The notes under the pieces: model-generated
Seen by the model: only the letters and a program-made list of their open reading frames with translations
What the model was told of the DNA's origin: nothing
The model's database searches: none
Part shown: one piece after another, positions 51,705 through 59,177 of the stretch
Position numbering within the stretch: the stretch's first letter is position 1
Layout of the letters: the number at the start of each line of letters is the position of its first letter
Made by a program: the position numbers and the translations under genes
Source of the DNA: Micromonospora sp. NBC_01740
GTDB taxonomy: Bacteria > Actinomycetota > Actinomycetes > Mycobacteriales > Micromonosporaceae
Length of the DNA: 64,000 nt
Direction of reading: 5' to 3'
Assembly (NCBI RefSeq): GCF_035920365.1
Contig: NZ_CP109150.1
Coordinates: 3,906,001 to 3,970,000 of the forward strand

Positions 51705-52550
51705 ATGCTGCGTGTCGCCATTCCGAACAAGGGCGCCCTGGCCGAGAAGGCCGCCCAGATGCTGCGCGAGGCGGGCTACCGCCAGCGCACCGACCCGAAG
51801 GACCTGGTCTGCCGGGACGAGCCCAACGACGTCGAGTTCTTCTACCTGCGCCCGAAGGACATCGCCACCTACGTCGGCTCCGGCGACCTCGACGTCGGGA
51901 TCACCGGCCGGGACCTGCTGATCGACTCCGGCGCGCCGGCCGAGGAGGTCATGGATCTCGACTTCGGCCGGGCCACCTTCCGCTTCGCCGCCCGCCCGGA
52001 GGACGTCGACGACGTGCGGGAGCTGGGCGGGCACCGGATCGCCACCGCGTACCCGGGGCTCGTGGAGCGGCACCTCGCGGAGCTGGGCGTCAAGGCCGAG
52101 GTGACCCGCCTCGACGGCGCGGTGGAGAACGCCATCCGGCTCGGCGTCGCCGACGTGGTCGCCGACGTGGTCGAGACCGGCACCACGCTGCGCCAGGCCG
52201 GCCTCGTGGTCTTCGGCGAGCCGCTGCTGCGCTCGTCGGCGGTGCTGGTCCGCCGCGCCGACGTCGAGGCCCACCCGCAGGCCGCGCAGCTGCTGCGCCG
52301 GCTGCACGGGGTGCTGGTCGCCCGCCGCTACGTGATGCTCGCCTACGACGTGCCGGCCGGCCTGCTCGACCGGGCCAGCTCGCTGACCCCGGGCATCGAG
52401 TCGCCGACCGTCTCCCCGCTGCACCGCGAGGGCTGGGTGGCGGTGCAGGCGATGGTGCTCCGCGACGACGTGCACCGGATCATGGACGAGCTGTACGAGC
52501 TCGGGGCCCGCGCGATCCTGGTCACCAACATCCACGCCTGCCGGCTGTGA
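51705..52550 (+). CDS. hisG: ATP phosphoribosyltransferase (long form)
   Basis: 281 aa from ATG 51705; AGGAG lies ten bases upstream. First histidine step, condensing ATP and PRPP. Visible: VAIPNKGALAEKAAQML at 4-20, DLDVGITGRDLLID near 63, RIATAYPGL, and the PRPP loop ADVVADVVETGTTLRQAG near 151-168. The C-terminal 75 residues form the ferredoxin-like allosteric histidine-binding domain of the long form, so HisZ is not needed. Overlaps the transporter gene by 4 nt. Confidence 0.95.
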   Translation: MLRVAIPNKGALAEKAAQMLREAGYRQRTDPKDLVCRDEPNDVEFFYLRPKDIATYVGSGDLDVGITGRDLLIDSGAPAEEVMDLDFGRATFRFAARPEDVDDVRELGGHRIATAYPGLVERHLAELGVKAEVTRLDGAVENAIRLGVADVVADVVETGTTLRQAGLVVFGEPLLRSSAVLVRRADVEAHPQAAQLLRRLHGVLVARRYVMLAYDVPAGLLDRASSLTPGIESPTVSPLHREGWVAVQAMVLRDDVHRIMDELYELGARAILVTNIHACRL

Positions 52551-53584
52551 GCCGTTCGCCCACGGCGGGTGCCCCGGCGCCGTCCCCGGTGTCGCGGGCC
52601 CTGCCGCCGTGGGTGGCGCTGACCCTGGTCACCCTCGCCGGCGTCGCCTCGGCGGCCCAGGGCGCGGCCAACGCCGAGCTGGGCGAGCGGGCCGGCAACG
52701 CCACCCTGGGCGCGGTGGTCAACAACCTCGGCGGGGCGCTGCTGGTCGGCCTCGGGGTCCTGGCGCTGCCCTCGGCGCGCACCGGCCTGGCCGCGCTGCG
52801 CCGGGCCCGGTTGCCCTGGTGGACGTACCTGGGCGGGCTCGGCGGCGCGGGCATCGTGCTGGCCGGCGCGTACATCGTCCCGGTGCTCGGGGTGGCGCTC
52901 TTCACCATCGCCCAGGTCGCCGGCGGCAGCCTCGGCGGGCTGGCCGTCGACCGGGCCGGGCTGGCGCCGGTGGGGCGGCTGGCGCTCACCCCGCCCCGGG
53001 TGGCCGGTGCGCTGCTCGGCGTGACCGCCGTGACGCTGGCCCAGCTCGGCCAGCCCGTCGGCGACCTCGCCCTCGGCCTGGTCCTGCTCGCCGTGGCCGG
53101 TGGGCTCGGTGTCGCGCTCCAGTCCGCGCTGAACGCGCGGGTCTCCGCCGCCAGTTCGGCCGCCGCCGGGATGGTGGTCAACTTCGCCACGGCCACGCCC
53201 GTCGTGCTGCTGGTCGCGGCGCTGGCCGGCGCCCTCACCGGGCCGGGCCCGACCTGGCCGGACGACTGGTACCTCTACACCGGCGGCCTGCTCGGCGTCG
53301 TCATCGTGGCCGCCCTGCTGGTCGGCGTCCCCGCGGTCGGCGTGCTGCGCACCGGGCTCGCCCTGGTCGCCGGCCAGCTGGGCGGCGCCCTGCTGCTGGA
53401 CGCGCTGCTGCCGGGCGGCCCCGGCCTGCGGCTGCCGGTGCTGGCCGGCGCGCTGCTCACCCTGGCGGCCGCCCTGGTCGCCGGCCGAGGGGGCGGCCGG
53501 CGGGGTCCGCGCGACGCCGTGCCGCCGACCGCCGCCGGTCCGGGAGCACCCGCCGCGACCGCCGAATCAGCGACGCCGAGGTAG
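52547..53584 (+). CDS. DMT-superfamily (YdcZ/DUF606-like) membrane transporter
   Basis: 345 aa from GTG 52547. Ten hydrophobic segments in two five-helix halves; each half has the DUF606 style SAAQGAANAELGERAGNATLGA near 37-58 and its counterpart ALQSALNARVSAASSAAAGM near 190-209. The C-terminal 35 residues are a Gly/Pro/Arg-rich tail. Substrate unknown; coupling to hisG suggests only operon membership. Confidence 0.82.
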   Translation: MSRSPTAGAPAPSPVSRALPPWVALTLVTLAGVASAAQGAANAELGERAGNATLGAVVNNLGGALLVGLGVLALPSARTGLAALRRARLPWWTYLGGLGGAGIVLAGAYIVPVLGVALFTIAQVAGGSLGGLAVDRAGLAPVGRLALTPPRVAGALLGVTAVTLAQLGQPVGDLALGLVLLAVAGGLGVALQSALNARVSAASSAAAGMVVNFATATPVVLLVAALAGALTGPGPTWPDDWYLYTGGLLGVVIVAALLVGVPAVGVLRTGLALVAGQLGGALLLDALLPGGPGLRLPVLAGALLTLAAALVAGRGGGRRGPRDAVPPTAAGPGAPAATAESATPR

Positions 53585-53624
53585 GCGCCGACGATCCGGC
53601 GGTACGCGGGACCGGGCCCGTCGG

Positions 53625-54455
53625 TCAGTTCGTCCGCTCGGAGAGCCCGTGCCGTCGCTCGTACGTCCGGATCGCCGCGTCCCACGCCTCGGTGTACTCC
53701 GACGGCCCCATGCCGAGGTCGCCGTGCCCCCGCACGGCCTCCCGCAGCAGCTCCACCAGGTCCGGCACCGTCCCCCGGCGCTCCTCCACGTACCGGCGGA
53801 AGACCTCCGCGAACTGTTCACCGGTCAGCCGGGCCGCGTGCGCGGTGACCGGATCGTCCTCCAGGCTCTGCAGCACGGCGCACCACCGGCGGGTCAGCTC
53901 GTCGGCCTGCTGGGCCCTGATCTTCTGCAGCTCGTGGTCGCACTCGAGCTTGATCCGCTGCTCCCAGTACGGCCGCAGCCGCTCCCGCACCCGCTCGTCC
54001 GGGCTGACCCGCACCTGCACCCAGAAGTAGGGCTGGGCACCCTCGCGGGGCCAGCGCTGACCGGCCAGCCGGTCGTTGAGCGCCCGCTCCAGGTCGTGCG
54101 AGCGGTGCGGCTCGTACTGGCGGGCCAGATCCACCGCCCGCTCGCGGACGATGCCACCCGCCCAGGCGAGATACCGCTCGGCCCGCAGCCGCAGCGCCTC
54201 GTAGGGCATGTTCTGCGCGGTCCAGTTGTAGACGGCGTGCAGCCGGAAGTCGAAGGCGTCGCCCCTGGCCGGGACCAGGATCGGCTGCGGCACGTCGTGG
54301 CGGAACGTCACCGTGTCGGGGACCGGGGGCGCCGGTGGCCCGGCGGGAGGGACCGGTTCGACCGGCGGGAAGATGGCGTGCCACCAGCGGCGGCGCTCCG
54401 GCTGGGGCGGTACGAACGCTGCCGTGGGGGGTGGCCCGGTGGGGTGAGTCGTCAT
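53625..54455 (-). CDS. SPFH/Band-7-like coiled-coil protein of the cyclase-linked cassette
   Basis: 276 aa, ATG at 54455 overlapping the preceding gene's stop by ATGA. Residues 1-50 are Pro-rich. Then follows a beta-rich block (TVTFRHDVPQPILVPARGDAFDFRLHAVY within 50-80) and alternating amphipathic helices with REAVxLAR-like text (VRERAVDLARQYEPHRSHDL) and a long charged helix (YWEQRIKLECDHELQKIRAQ, about 165-200). This order resembles the SPFH (stomatin/prohibitin) domain with its coiled coil, but the match is by pattern only. No membrane segment or catalytic motif is seen. Third gene of the coupled cassette; it could be a scaffold or effector. Confidence 0.5.
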   Translation of the reverse strand: MTTHPTGPPPTAAFVPPQPERRRWWHAIFPPVEPVPPAGPPAPPVPDTVTFRHDVPQPILVPARGDAFDFRLHAVYNWTAQNMPYEALRLRAERYLAWAGGIVRERAVDLARQYEPHRSHDLERALNDRLAGQRWPREGAQPYFWVQVRVSPDERVRERLRPYWEQRIKLECDHELQKIRAQQADELTRRWCAVLQSLEDDPVTAHAARLTGEQFAEVFRRYVEERRGTVPDLVELLREAVRGHGDLGMGPSEYTEAWDAAIRTYERRHGLSERTN

Positions 54456-56722
54456 GACAGGTCCTCGTCGATGAGTGCGTGTACGGCGTCGAGCAGTTCG
54501 TTGCGCGGCATGATGGGCCGCCAGACGTGGCGGACCTGGTGGTCGAGGCGATGCCGCAGCGGCGGCCGACCGGCGATCACGTGCCGGAGCAGGGCCACGC
54601 AGTGGGCGGCGACCTCGGGGTTTCCGTCCGCCCGGTTCAGCCAGAAGCCGAGCGTCCGCCACGAGCGGTAGGCCGTCTGCGGCATGCCCAGCGCCACGGC
54701 CCAGAGCGCGGCCACGTCGCCCGGGCTGACGATCCGCCGCCGGACGAGGTCCAGCAGCTCCGGCCAGTGCTCCCTGGGCGGCTCGGCCCAGCGGTCGGCG
54801 AGGACACGCAGCGTCCGCGCCGCGTGCAGCCGCACCTCCGGGTCGTCGGACGTCCAGTCGACCAGCTCCGGCACGAGCGTGGCCGCGTGGCCGTCCCGGT
54901 AGACCTCGACCAGGCCCCGGACCACGGAGTTGTTCCGCCGCTGCATGCGGGCCTGCGCCACCAGGCGCAACTGCACGAGAGCGGCGTCGGGCCAGAGGCG
55001 GGCCAGTCCGAGGCCGTACGCCCGCGCGACGGTGTCCCGCAGGTGTGCCGCCGGTCCGGCGGCCCACTGGTCGAGTTCGGTCCGTACGCGCTGGCGCAGG
55101 CCGGGTTGCATCGCCATCGCGACCAGCACGATGGCGGCGGCCTGCCGGACGCCCGCCCGCCGTTCCCGGGCCAGGTCGCCGACCGTCTCCAGGGCTGCCC
55201 GCACGTCCCGCCCTGCCGACCAGCCGATGGCGCCCGCGGCGGCCTGCCGGATCCCCGGCACGTCGGAGCGGACCAGGCCCGCGAGCCAGCCGAGCAGCTG
55301 CCCGGGCAGCCACCAGTCAGTCCAGGCGACCTCGAGCAGCGTCGAACGGAGCTGCTCGCTGCCGGCGCCGAACTCGATCCGCCGGCCCCCCGCGGCGCGT
55401 TCGTCGCCGACCACGACGACGGCCTGGCGCAGCGTCGACCCGAGCAGCGTGTCCAGTTCGGGGCCGCGCAGCCGGGGTCCGACGGAGGCGGTCCCGGTGG
55501 GGTCGGTCCCGGCCAACCGCCGGGCCGCCTGATCGATCTCCGCCACCGGCTGCCCGGCCAGTACGGCGCAGGTCAGCCGGAAGGCGCGGGCCCGGTCGGC
55601 CGCCCAGGCGTCGACCCCGTCCGGGCCGTCGGGTCGGCCGGCGTCGAGGATCTGCGTCGCGCGCTCCCGCAGCTGGCGGGGGAGCAGCTGCTCCAACCGC
55701 TCGGTCAGGGCGGGCCCGTGCGGGACCGTCCGGGCGATCAGCTCCACGACGGGCACCACCTCGCCCGGCCGGGGCTCGCCGGCGAGGTAGGCCGAGAGCA
55801 GCGGATGGGTGACGCACTCGTCGTCGACGTACCGCTCCACGCAGGTGCCGTCGCAGCCGTCCGGGCACCAGCCGACGCACAGCCCGGCCAACTGCTGGCG
55901 CAGTCGCGCCCGGAACACCTCCACCGCCGGCGGCACCCGATGCTCCACGAGGTGGCCGGCGAGGTCCTGACCGCGCCGGGAGAAGTCTCCGACCAGGATC
56001 AGCGTCATGCCGGTCGCCTCGGCCCGGGCCGCGAGCGCCACGAGGGTGAACCCGTCGACGGCGTTCGCCGCGCTGTCCGCGAGCCGGAGCACGTACCCGC
56101 GTCCGGCGGGCAACCGTTCGCTCGACCCGAGCAGGTCGGCGGGCTGTTCCGCGCCGAGGACGCAGGCGCGGTCGAGCCCGTGCCGGCGGGCGGTGGCGAG
56201 GACGGCGGAGGTGAACCGGCCGCTGGCGGACGGGCCGGACAGGCACACCAGGTGGCGGCGCTTGAGGTGGCGGTCGAGCTGCTGGTCGCTGGACGTCGGC
56301 GCGTATCCCTGCGCCAGTTCCCCGACCTCGTTCCCGCTCAGGCTCTCGTACCAGATCCGCCCCGTGCCGTCGGCTCCCGTGGTGGTCACGTTGACGGTGC
56401 CGATCGCGACGGCGCCGTGTCCGGTGGCGTTCTGGCCCCGTACCCGTACGTCGCCGAGGCCGATCGTGGCGCCGCCGAGCAGGTCGGCCAGTCCGCGGAT
56501 GACGTCCGCCGAGTCGAGCGGCTCCTCCGGCTCGTCCGCCTCGCCGCCCTCCGACGACCCGGTCTCCGCCGGGTCCGTCCGCCCGTCCGGTGGGCCCTCA
56601 TCCGGTCCCGCCGCCGGGCCCTCCGTGGGACGGTCGTACCCGTCGTCACCGGGGGCGTCCCGGGGCCCGTCCGGGTCGTCGTCGCCGACGACGTGCGGGT
56701 ACGGGAAGTGGGGTGCGGTCAC
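54452..56722 (-). CDS. Degenerate P-loop protein with HEAT-like repeats and N-terminal adaptor motif
   Basis: 756 aa from GTG at 56722 (GTGA overlap with the upstream gene). Residues 1-70 are acidic and disordered. At 91-111 lies a Gly/Asn/Ala motif (VRVRGQNATGHGAVAIGTV) almost identical to one at the C-terminus of the preceding protein. A NTPase-like domain starts at about 155, but Walker A reads G163-PSAS-G-R-F-T, with Arg for Lys; TLILVGDF near 240 may be Walker B. Four cysteines in CVGWCPDGCDGTC near 285 may bind metal. From about 480 come helical repeats of the HEAT type (VPGIRQAAAGAIGW, DDPEVRLHAARTLRVLADRW). The build recalls STAND-type signalling proteins. Confidence 0.6.
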   Translation of the reverse strand: MTAPHFPYPHVVGDDDPDGPRDAPGDDGYDRPTEGPAAGPDEGPPDGRTDPAETGSSEGGEADEPEEPLDSADVIRGLADLLGGATIGLGDVRVRGQNATGHGAVAIGTVNVTTTGADGTGRIWYESLSGNEVGELAQGYAPTSSDQQLDRHLKRRHLVCLSGPSASGRFTSAVLATARRHGLDRACVLGAEQPADLLGSSERLPAGRGYVLRLADSAANAVDGFTLVALAARAEATGMTLILVGDFSRRGQDLAGHLVEHRVPPAVEVFRARLRQQLAGLCVGWCPDGCDGTCVERYVDDECVTHPLLSAYLAGEPRPGEVVPVVELIARTVPHGPALTERLEQLLPRQLRERATQILDAGRPDGPDGVDAWAADRARAFRLTCAVLAGQPVAEIDQAARRLAGTDPTGTASVGPRLRGPELDTLLGSTLRQAVVVVGDERAAGGRRIEFGAGSEQLRSTLLEVAWTDWWLPGQLLGWLAGLVRSDVPGIRQAAAGAIGWSAGRDVRAALETVGDLARERRAGVRQAAAIVLVAMAMQPGLRQRVRTELDQWAAGPAAHLRDTVARAYGLGLARLWPDAALVQLRLVAQARMQRRNNSVVRGLVEVYRDGHAATLVPELVDWTSDDPEVRLHAARTLRVLADRWAEPPREHWPELLDLVRRRIVSPGDVAALWAVALGMPQTAYRSWRTLGFWLNRADGNPEVAAHCVALLRHVIAGRPPLRHRLDHQVRHVWRPIMPRNELLDAVHALIDEDLS

Positions 56723-57567
56723 CGTGCCCGGCCCTCCCGTCCGCCACCGAAGGTCAGGTCGCGCCCGACGGAACCGATCGCCGTGGCGCCGTGCCCGATC
56801 GCGTTCTGGCCGTCGACCCGGATGTCACCCGTCCGGATGTCGCCCGCGCCCGGCGGCGTCCGGGTCGCGGGGGACTCCGGCGGCTCCCCACCCGGGGCCC
56901 CGCCTCCCCGAGCGGGCGGCGTCGCCGTGGAGACGGGTGCCGGGGAAGGCGCACCGGCGCTCTCCGCCGCCGGCAGGGCGGACATGTCCTCGTCCACGAC
57001 GCAGAACCAGGCGTCCTCCCGGAACCCCTTGTCCGGGTGCGTCACCTCGACCCGCCGGAAGCGCTCGGGGCGCATCTCCTCCGGGTACTCGGTGACGACG
57101 TCGCGGTAGATCTCCGCCGACACGACCAGCGCCACCCCGGCGTCGGGAAAGGCCGCCAGGGCCTGCTTCACGGGTGCCGCCTCGCAGAGCCGGCAGACGA
57201 GGACGACGGCGTTGCCGGGGAAGCCGTTGGCCCCGTCGAGGTGGACCAGTCCCTGGTGGACGGCGACCCGCAGGCGGATCCGGGCGGCCGGCACCCGGCT
57301 GCTGTTGTAGCTGCGCAGCCGCCTGTTCAGCTCCGGTACGAAGCGGCCGATGACGCGGGACTCGGCCACGTCGCGGGGGAGGATCGCCAGCTCGCCGTCG
57401 CCGGCCTGCTGCGTCGTCCAGGCGACCCGGTCCAGGCCGACGTCGCCAGCCGCCTCGTGCAGCAGTTCCCGGAAGTGTTTCTGCGCCTCGTACTGCTGGA
57501 GGTTGGTGCGCCGGCTGTACCGCTCCATGTCCACGGAGATCAACAGTCGTCGCTCGGGATGTCGCAT
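56719..57567 (-). CDS. Class III nucleotide-cyclase-homology protein with C-terminal adaptor motif
   Basis: 282 aa from ATG at 57567; an upstream start at 57624 adds 19 unstructured residues. The cyclase fold is visible: LLISVDMERYSRR (first metal Asp), QQAGDGELAIL near 50 (GD motif, second metal Asp), IRLRVAVHQGLVHLDG and GNAVVLVCRLCEAA followed by VVSAEIYRDV. The usual purine-specifying Lys before GD is Gln. The catalytic Asn of VNxAARL is Val, while the Arg is kept. A Pro/Gly linker (about 195-245) leads to VDGQNAIGHGATAIGSVG at 251-268, shared with the next protein. It may bind nucleotide, act as a weak or atypical cyclase, or be a pure sensor. Confidence 0.65.
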   Translation of the reverse strand: MRHPERRLLISVDMERYSRRTNLQQYEAQKHFRELLHEAAGDVGLDRVAWTTQQAGDGELAILPRDVAESRVIGRFVPELNRRLRSYNSSRVPAARIRLRVAVHQGLVHLDGANGFPGNAVVLVCRLCEAAPVKQALAAFPDAGVALVVSAEIYRDVVTEYPEEMRPERFRRVEVTHPDKGFREDAWFCVVDEDMSALPAAESAGAPSPAPVSTATPPARGGGAPGGEPPESPATRTPPGAGDIRTGDIRVDGQNAIGHGATAIGSVGRDLTFGGGREGRAR

Positions 57568-57743
57568 CGTCGTGCCGCCCTTCGTCGCCCGACCCGCCCC
57601 ACAGGCGGGCACCGCAGGGGACATCGAACCGGGGCGGGCCCGGCGGAACCCCGTAGAAGTACGGCATCGCCCGGAACTGTCGGTGGGGCGTCATCCCGTC
57701 CTGTTCGGGGGTCCGGCACGCGGCGGACCGGTCTCCTGGTCGC

Positions 57744-58634
57744 ATGAGGATCGGGCTGATGGAGCTGCTGCTCGCGGTCGGCTGGCCGCCGGGCGTCCTG
57801 CTGGCGTGGGTGATCGTCCAGCTCGCCGTCGCCGCCGCCCTGCGCCTGCGGGCGTCGCGCTACGCGCAGGGCCGGCTACGCTTCGACGGCTGTCGCTGGC
57901 CGAGGAGGATGAGAGCGCTGATGCGACGACCAGCCGAACTGTCCGACGTCACCTGGCCGTACGGCACGTTCCTGCAACGGCTCGGCCCTCCGGTTCGTGC
58001 CGCCCTGCTGGAGCTGGGGGTGCGCCGGCGGGTCCCGCCCGGACAGATCGTCATCCACGAGGGCGTACGGGAGTCGCACCTGGTGCTGCTCGATGAGGGG
58101 CTGACGAAGGTCACCGCGACCCTTCCGGACGGGCGGGCCGCACTGCTGGCCCTGCGCGTCGGCGGCGACCTCGTCGGCGAGATGTCGGCACTCAACGACC
58201 GGCCCCGCTCGGCGAGCGTCACCACCTGCGGGCCGGCGACGTACCGGGTCATCCAGCCCGACCGGTTCAAGATGTTCCTCAAGGAGCACCCGGACGCCGC
58301 GCTGGAGTTGGCGGCGATGGTGTCGGACCGGCTGCGCTGGTCCAACCGGCGGCGCATCGACTTCACCTCCTACCCGGTGAAGATCAGGGTCGCCCGGGTC
58401 GTCGCCGAGCTCTGCCGCACCCACGGCCGCCAGGTTCGCGACGGCGTGGTCATCGACGTGCGGCTCACCCAGCCCGAGCTCGCCAGCATCTGCGGCGCCG
58501 CCGAGACCTCCATCCAGAAGGCCCTGCGTGAACTGCGCACGGAAGGCCTGGTCGACACGGACTACCGCCGGATCACCGTCCGCGATCTGCCCCGGCTGCG
58601 GCGGATGGGCGAGCTGGAGGCCGGGGAGGACTGA
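57744..58634 (+). CDS. Crp/Fnr-type cNMP-binding regulator, possibly membrane-anchored
   Basis: 296 aa if ATG 57744 is used. A cyclic-nucleotide-binding domain covers about 75-190, with the phosphate-binding cassette GDLVGEMSALNDRPRSAS near 140-157 retaining Glu and Arg-Ser. A Crp-type winged helix (LTQPELASICGAAETSIQKA, about 239-258) lies at the C-terminus. Starting at 57909 or 57921, behind AGGAGG at 57903-57908, gives the usual 237-241 aa. But 57744-57880 has strong G/C third-base bias and encodes a hydrophobic segment (LLLAVGWPPGVLLAWVIVQL), so an N-terminal anchor may be real. Divergent from the cyclase-like gene, which it probably controls. Confidence 0.85.
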   Translation: MRIGLMELLLAVGWPPGVLLAWVIVQLAVAAALRLRASRYAQGRLRFDGCRWPRRMRALMRRPAELSDVTWPYGTFLQRLGPPVRAALLELGVRRRVPPGQIVIHEGVRESHLVLLDEGLTKVTATLPDGRAALLALRVGGDLVGEMSALNDRPRSASVTTCGPATYRVIQPDRFKMFLKEHPDAALELAAMVSDRLRWSNRRRIDFTSYPVKIRVARVVAELCRTHGRQVRDGVVIDVRLTQPELASICGAAETSIQKALRELRTEGLVDTDYRRITVRDLPRLRRMGELEAGED

Positions 58635-58691
58635 CGGGCGCCGGGCGGGGGCGGAACGTGTGGCGGCGCGGGAACGGCCGGGACCGGGTGG

Positions 58692-58697
58692 CAGACT
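58692..58697 (+). promoter_or_regulatory. -10-like hexamer of the PH-domain gene, probably leaderless
   Basis: CAGACT lies 6 nt before GTG 58704; GGTGGGG in between is not at ribosome-site distance. Confidence 0.4.
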
Positions 58698-58703
58698 GGT
58701 GGG

Positions 58704-59177
58704 GTGAGCGAAATCGAGTCCGTCCACCTGCGCCCGCGCCGCATCCGAGTGGTCTGCTGGGCCTGCGCGGCTGTGCTGTTCGTGGTGTTCAGCCTGCTGG
58801 CCACCTCGTTGAGCGGCGCGACGGGCAACGGCTACGGCAGCTTCCAGCGGGGCGACCAGATCGCGATGGTCGGGCTCGGCGTCCTCGGTGCGCTCGCCGT
58901 CCTGATCTTCACCCGTCCCCGGGTCGACGCGAACGCGTCGGGGGTGCGCGTGCGCAACCTCGTCGGCTCGTACGAGCTGCCGTGGGAGGTCGTCCGGGGG
59001 GTCCGCTTCGACCGGGGCGCGCCCTGGGCCAGCCTGGAGCTGCACGACGACGACCTGCTGCCGATGGTCGCCCTCCAGGCCGCCGACAAGGAGCGGGCCG
59101 TCGAGGGGGTCCGCGCCCTGCGCCGGCTGCACCAGGCGCACCAGGCCCGGCTCACCGAGGGCGCCGCCGGCCGCTGA
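58704..59177 (+). CDS. Bacterial PH-domain membrane protein
   Basis: 157 aa from GTG 58704. Two membrane segments (about 15-35, VVCWACAAVLFVVFSLLATS, and about 52-67) precede a small beta domain of the bPH type: TRPRVDANASGVRVRNLVGSYELPWEVVRGVRF. Family members with this layout are common in actinobacteria, often near hisG. Function is unknown. The close hisG association elsewhere suggests the cassette at 53.6-58.6 kb was inserted between hisG's neighbours and this gene. Confidence 0.8.
   Translation: MSEIESVHLRPRRIRVVCWACAAVLFVVFSLLATSLSGATGNGYGSFQRGDQIAMVGLGVLGALAVLIFTRPRVDANASGVRVRNLVGSYELPWEVVRGVRFDRGAPWASLELHDDDLLPMVALQAADKERAVEGVRALRRLHQAHQARLTEGAAGR

Follow-up and report, generated by a model that had tools for sequence, protein, structure and literature searches.

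Background

Bacterial NLR-like sensors can be paired with their effectors through amyloid motifs, and passages of PMC7889193 name BELL, CHAT and TIR as the effectors of such pairs. In BASS pairs, as passages of three papers describe them, the motif lies at the C-terminus of the effector and at the N-terminus of the sensor and is common to the two partners (PMC7889193; PMC8086366; PMC12261475). Cyclic-nucleotide alarms of the Pycsar type use class III cyclases, and the PycC enzymes discussed in parts of PMC11224242 have paired aspartates (Asp62/Asp106 and Asp102/Asp146) spaced 44 residues apart. Cyclic nucleotide monophosphate (cNMP) cyclases, Band-7 domains and inactive STAND modules appear in passages on other conflict systems (PMC7159879; PMC8195603). 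The window analysed here, 64,000 nucleotides of Micromonospora sp. NBC_01740 (positions 3,906,001 to 3,970,000 of its single 7.32-Mb contig), contains a four-gene cassette whose parts have precedents in these systems, since PMC7159879 and PMC8195603 describe such domains. It encodes a cyclase-fold protein (CYC), a P-loop/HEAT protein (NTP), an SPFH-like protein and a Crp/Fnr-like regulator, and CYC and NTP share a motif that varies between operons and agrees within most CYC-NTP pairs.

The cassette resembles BASS pairs, in the terms of the passages cited above, in its adjacent or overlapping genes, in a pair-shared motif at the C-terminus of the effector-position protein and the N-terminus of the sensor-position protein, in closer agreement of this motif within pairs than between them, and in its occurrence in filamentous actinobacteria. 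This likeness is one of layout and pairing. The cassette differs in having a predicted class III cyclase-fold protein as its effector and in adding genes for Crp and SPFH-like proteins, joined in some relatives by PycTM. No cyclase serving as the effector of an amyloid NLR pair was found in the literature searched (titles, abstracts and passages).

With Pycsar, as described in parts of PMC11224242, the cassette shares the class III cyclase fold, the metal aspartate spacing of 44, a nearby cNMP-binding protein and, in some relatives, PycTM. It departs from Pycsar in its motif-joined P-loop/HEAT or TPR partner and its SPFH-like protein, in the lack of PycTM from the window operon and in CYC, where the PycC aromatic selector was not seen. 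A plain Pycsar operon was rejected for the window, as neither PycTM nor PycC matches: CYC matched none of the PycC models in PADLOC, the sequence yardstick for Pycsar, and no PycTM or PycTIR was detected among the four cassette proteins or the flanking genes scanned.

Similarities to vWA-MoxR ternary and effector-associated domain (EAD)-linked systems, within the passages of PMC7159879 and PMC8195603, extend to a candidate STAND or inactive STAND module, a cNMP cyclase, Band-7, an occasional Crp-like gene and an adaptor shared by sensor and effector. In the cassette the adaptor is not a globular EAD but a motif only some 25 residues long, and the neighbours of the cassette are HisG, a DMT-type transporter and a bacterial PH-domain protein. 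A vWA-MoxR ternary system was also rejected; neither vWA nor MoxR was matched in the four cassette proteins or the flanking proteins scanned.

The cyclase-fold protein and its neighbour share a pair-specific motif

The motif GDIRVDGQNAIGHGATAIGSVGRD at the C-terminus of CYC is nearly identical to GDVRVRGQNATGHGAVAIGTVNV at the N-terminus of NTP, a resemblance absent from the earlier, sequence-only reading of this DNA. When a 35-residue motif peptide was compared with the whole genome at E 10, it matched the CYC and NTP sites and nothing else. Across related operons the motif changes while the partners remain alike, as in the pairs GPTQFGNHNTMGN/GPTQFGTHNTMNN (L029), GPTSFGGPAAGRDVNY/GPTSLGGPSAGRDVNI (L034), KVVGGDEINY/KVVGGDEITY (L065) and GDQIGGASHRADGHGIVNAPGRDQ/GDDIGGASHRATDGGTVNAAGRDQ (L066).

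This pairing was assessed by permutation in two sets. The hand-picked set held 19 pairs (20 loci, with L031 dropped), chosen after the tails had been inspected. The true partner ranked first in 16 of these, second in L032, sixth in L083 and fifteenth in L085; the summed score of 1102 was reached by none of 100,000 permutations, the highest of which scored 850. The corresponding z was 12.1, or 13.1 using the last 35 residues alone. The second set followed a rule, which paired a cyclase gene of less than 400 amino acids (aa) with the next same-strand gene of at least 400 aa and left out the close Micromonospora copies except that of the window. Its 22 pairs gave a z of 12.5, again with none of 100,000 permutations reaching the summed score; the partner ranked first in the same 16 pairs and second in L032. 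Seven loci were without a partner under this rule (L031, L039, L043, L070, L074, L076 and L079), and longer cyclases fell outside both sets (L035, L036, L040, L042, L069, L071-L073, L075, L077, L078, L082 and the second gene of L068).

The likeness could be a by-product of composition, or of a recent DNA duplication across the gene junction. The sequences are Gly/Ala-rich and come from GC-rich genomes, five sets of shuffled tails still scored slightly above zero (z 0.05 to 1.64 for the 19 pairs), and the best alignment of the L037 pair is a Pro/Ala-rich stretch instead of the motif that can be picked out by eye. The pair-specific match over diverged operons in both sets, set against the flat behaviour of other protein parts (four comparisons, z -1.92 to 0.85), makes this explanation extremely improbable. 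Of all the evidence for joint action of these genes, the shared motif weighs most.

Layout of the cassette

The sequence-only reading had described three minus-strand genes, for a cyclase-homology, a P-loop/HEAT-like and an SPFH-like protein, coupled by GTGA and ATGA overlaps, with a divergent Crp/Fnr regulator bearing a cNMP-binding domain. This arrangement was confirmed, with all genes intact and placed where that reading had them (Table 1). Its expectation of a conserved four-gene neighbourhood was also borne out, the four genes being adjacent and in unchanged order in all 12 contigs found with CYC.

Table 1. Coordinates of the cassette, its flanks and related features (window positions unless a locus is named).
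Feature	Position	Strand	Remarks
Cassette extent	53585..58703		Between the transporter gene and the PH-domain gene
Transporter gene (DMT-type)	52547-53584		Flank of cassette
SPFH-like gene	53625..54455	minus	276 aa; core in model at residues 47-207
ATGA overlap, NTP/SPFH-like gene	54452..54455	minus
NTP	54452..56722	minus	756-aa P-loop/HEAT protein; candidate STAND-like sensor
HEAT-repeat stretch of NTP	54797..55288	minus	Residues 479-642; sub-threshold Pfam matches
Degenerate Walker A-like GPSASGRFTS of NTP	56207..56236	minus	Residues 163-172; Arg for Lys
Shared motif, sensor side	56387..56455	minus	NTP residues 90-112, ahead of the P-loop
GTGA stop/start overlap, CYC/NTP	56719..56722	minus
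CYC	56719..57567	minus	282 aa
Shared motif, cyclase side	56758..56829	minus	CYC residues 247-270
Asp57 of CYC, second metal-binding Asp	57397..57399	minus	Alignment; spacing of 44 from Asp13
Asp13 of CYC, presumed first metal-binding Asp of the class III signature	57529..57531	minus	Alignment and class III signature
Crp/Fnr-like regulator	57744..58634	plus	Divergent from the CYC-NTP-SPFH operon
Hydrophobic segment GVLLAWVIVQLAVAAALRL, Crp N-terminus	57792..57848	plus	Possible membrane anchor
Bacterial PH-domain gene	58704-59177		Flank of cassette
L018 paralogous operon	L018 5161-9887 (G000:C1 ~4,031,160-4,035,890)		PycTM is the fifth gene

The cassette proteins

CYC is predicted by its fold model to have the class III nucleotide-cyclase fold at about residues 1-195, followed by a Pro-rich linker and the C-terminal motif. 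The model, unlike the sequence searches, gave this identity: Pfam, NCBIfam and PADLOC searches returned no family, and sequence searches against solved structures returned nothing or chance matches. In the alignment CYC has both metal-binding aspartates of class III cyclases, Asp57 and Asp13, the latter of which we take to be the first of the pair partly from the class III signature.

For NTP, the family scan of the window gave no STAND match. Among relatives, nSTAND3 appeared below the cut-off in the sensor-position proteins of L018, L032, L033 and L034, and NPHP3_N and NACHT passed the cut-off in L086 alone. The sensor alignment (A8) drew HEAT proteins and scattered P-loop proteins, none of them at an E-value better than 0.004.

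The core of the 276-aa protein is SPFH-like in its fold model. Its gene was found in 31 of 61 genomes, at 70% identity or more only in the six with close CYC, and this protein (P0003) was matched in 29 of 37 same-genus genomes. Of 20 loci fetched for such P0003 matches, 19 (L044-L062) had neither CYC nor NTP called next to the match, and the remaining one, L063, yielded none of the core cassette genes. P0003 by itself is therefore no marker of the system.

The regulator is of the Crp/Fnr type, with cNMP-binding residues 95-182 and a Crp helix-turn-helix at residues 215-288. Its hydrophobic N-terminal segment, a possible membrane anchor in Micromonospora, was present in all 11 aligned rows of close orthologues (L010 lies outside the alignment) and absent from L016 and L018. 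Across the fetched loci 57 cyclase genes were called, 38 of them with a Crp-like gene no more than 1 kb away. Among cyclases shorter than 340 aa the figure was 36 of 41, and it becomes 32 of 37 once the twice-fetched loci L024, L025, L026 and L028 are discounted.

Related operons and PycTM

About 70 kb from the window operon, the same genome has a paralogous operon (L018) with Crp-like, cyclase and P-loop genes, a small fourth gene and PycTM in a row. Its motif pair, NNGQVATTV/NNGQVASRV, is distinct from that of the window. Some profiles included L016 and L018 rows, so that their matches to those loci are circular; profiles built without L018 still recognise two of its genes, the cyclase at 71.5 bits and the P-loop gene at 25.7 bits. 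Neither P0002 nor P0003, used as a single query sequence, recovered the L018 genes. Beside this operon (L018 10079-11283) there is a CRISPR-like array of 20 repeats at a spacing of about 61 bp, followed by a transposase gene (Mu-transpos_C_2).

In more distant genomes of the class, several operons bring together Crp and CYC with a gene in the sensor position, one that looks Band-7-like by eye and one for a small membrane protein. The PycTM cut-off of Pfam was passed by six of 12 small proteins (L018, L041, L067, L081, L084 and L086); that of L085 fell just below it, and those of L029, L030, L039, L066 and L074 were not above it. The occurrence of PycTM effectors in some related operons strengthens the link to cyclic nucleotides drawn in the sequence-only reading. 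The Band-7 nature of the larger third genes is a judgement by eye, because their alignment (A7) matched the SPFH alignment weakly (hhalign probability 29%) and that of L032 had no Pfam match at E 0.01.

Five plasmid records matched, of which H1, H4 and H5 were inspected and H2 and H3 left out. A mobilizable Streptomyces plasmid carries one copy, with an IS21 element some 2 kb away; there a TPR protein occupies the sensor place, and RefSeq calls the neighbour a Pycsar effector.

Distribution and chromosomal sites

CYC was found in at least 17 of 61 genomes at E 1e-5, and close CYC (at least 69% identity) in at least six of 37 same-genus genomes. The block occupies two sites, and the patchy distribution anticipated by the sequence-only reading holds within the genus. 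L005 has the cassette at the same site as the window, between hisG and the PH gene, and in relatives this interval was without the cassette in eight of eight cases (with the transporter in three of the eight). The ten other carriers (L006-L015) have it at a different site: argC lay in the fetched stretch in all ten, and pheT, recognised by its N-terminus, adjoins the Crp gene in seven (L008-L013 and L015), with other cargo between the cassette and pheT/argC in some carriers. In the window genome the pheT-argC gap is 169 bp, and the cassette lies about 7 kb upstream.

Thirty-one same-genus genomes had no close CYC match; in 20 of them the 4-4.8 kb upstream of argC showed no cassette gene. Both pheT and argC were visible in 12 of these 20, with a gap of 182-201 bp in four and of 761-4311 bp, containing other genes, in eight. 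Over loci L087-L106, the junction ranges in the genus from about 190 bp to more than 4 kb, with unrelated genes inside. The pheT-argC junction therefore counts as a variable cargo site.

Over 11 carriers the identities of the cassette genes partly follow that of argC (correlations of 0.52-0.82), as would be expected if descent had been mainly vertical, with losses and movement, and free horizontal spread in recent times had played the smaller part. The overall sequence-only reading, of a candidate signalling or conflict cassette, is supported.

Proposed mechanism

The cassette may be a sensor-gated cyclic-nucleotide signalosome in which a shared motif assembles the cyclase and a Crp-type protein reads its product, a proposal to which we would give an even chance. 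NTP would be a STAND-like sensor that, once triggered, lets its N-terminal motif template the C-terminal motif of CYC, probably as a cross-beta stack of the RHIM/BASS kind, and so gathers the cyclase domains. Class III cyclases act as dimers, and forced assembly is for that reason a plausible on-switch. The reader of the cyclic nucleotide would be the Crp-like protein, which in Micromonospora may be anchored in the membrane and which would control the divergent operon and perhaps other genes. PycTM would act as an additional membrane-effector reader in some relatives, and the SPFH-like protein as a membrane scaffold of the assembly. Of this model, the gene unit, the cyclase fold, the motif pairing, the two sites of the block and the PycTM genes of some relatives are observed, whereas the amyloid state, catalytic activity, ligand, signalling direction, membrane anchor and a role in defence are inferred.

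Several observations weigh against this proposal. L083 and L085 lack a pair match in both tests, and the three loci added by the rule, L038, L068 and L080, have partners ranking 16th, 13th and 19th. Arginine replaces the P-loop lysine of the window NTP, which makes switching by ATP doubtful. No phage record matched CYC at E 1e-5. The sole PycTM match of the genome is in the L018 operon, with none beside the window operon, and SPFH profiles built without L018 did not recognise the gene in its SPFH position (best E 0.033), which is SPFH-like solely by position and by eye. The PADLOC matches of the Crp protein come mostly through its cNMP-binding part, and CYC, NTP and the SPFH-like protein have no PADLOC match beyond a weak one to HEAT.

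The lack of a defence-library match for the three operon genes, together with their partial tracking of the chromosome, would also suit a regulatory operon of the ordinary kind. Development or membrane stress would then be under the control of the cyclase and its Crp reader, the HEAT and SPFH-like proteins would help assembly, and the operon would have no part in conflict or cell death. The patchiness within the genus and the cargo-like sites argue otherwise, as do the PycTM effectors and plasmid copy of relatives and the pair-specific motifs, which are typical of sensor-effector pairs; this account seems quite improbable.

The catalytic residues of CYC also weigh against the proposed signalosome. 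Of the transition-state Asn/Arg pair, Arg126 is kept and Val122 stands at what is presumably the Asn position, which holds Asn in four of 23 aligned rows (L016, L018, L037 and P0048). Gln53 occupies the position that we take to be that of the base-selecting Lys. By sequence position, Ser11 replaces the aromatic base selector given for PycC in parts of PMC11224242. The activity of CYC may be weak or absent because of Val122 and Gln53, and catalytically inactive cNMP cyclase domains are reported in passages of PMC7159879 for some vWA fusions. CYC could then be a dead cyclase serving as a nucleotide-binding or regulatory subunit of the sensor, held by a non-amyloid docking tag (e.g. strand pairing), with Crp regulating nothing beyond the operon. 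This alternative is somewhat unlikely: both metal aspartates and Arg126 are kept in very diverged CYC relatives, unusual for a dead enzyme, Crp-like genes accompany most short cyclases, and PycTM recurs.

With rather less confidence than in the signalosome itself, we suggest that actinobacterial NLR-like sensors may gate class III cyclases by prion-like templating through pair-specific amyloid motifs, giving a Pycsar-like alarm with Crp-type and PycTM readers. To our knowledge, what triggers Pycsar-type cyclases is an open question, and triggers are known for only some bacterial NLRs. If the suggestion holds, amyloid signalling would gain cyclases as a new class of effector, and the gene next to the cyclase would reveal the sensor missing from two-gene Pycsar operons. 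Two themes of bacterial immunity, the amyloid NLR pair and the cyclic-nucleotide alarm, would come together in a new wiring of cell-alarm sensors to small signalling molecules. Receptor, switch motif, enzyme and reader would all have candidates in one small operon, and the many pairs that vary in nature would serve the study of specificity.

Further cyclase-linked loci

At L039 (6435-10842) and L074 (5941-13991), GTPases, recognised by a Dynamin_N match in L039 and by eye in L074, have as neighbours Crp, a cyclase whose tail is His-rich and a small membrane protein; these loci may represent a further system linked to cyclases. A third cyclase-homology domain of the window genome lies in the C-terminal part of a longer open frame (L017 5000-7051), and the protein encoded after it has a stretch rich in Asn. 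In L064, L067 and L085 an extra polytopic membrane protein (DUF4407 at E 3.7e-61 in L085) comes after the Band-7-like gene, and in L067 and L085 it is followed by a PycTM-like gene.
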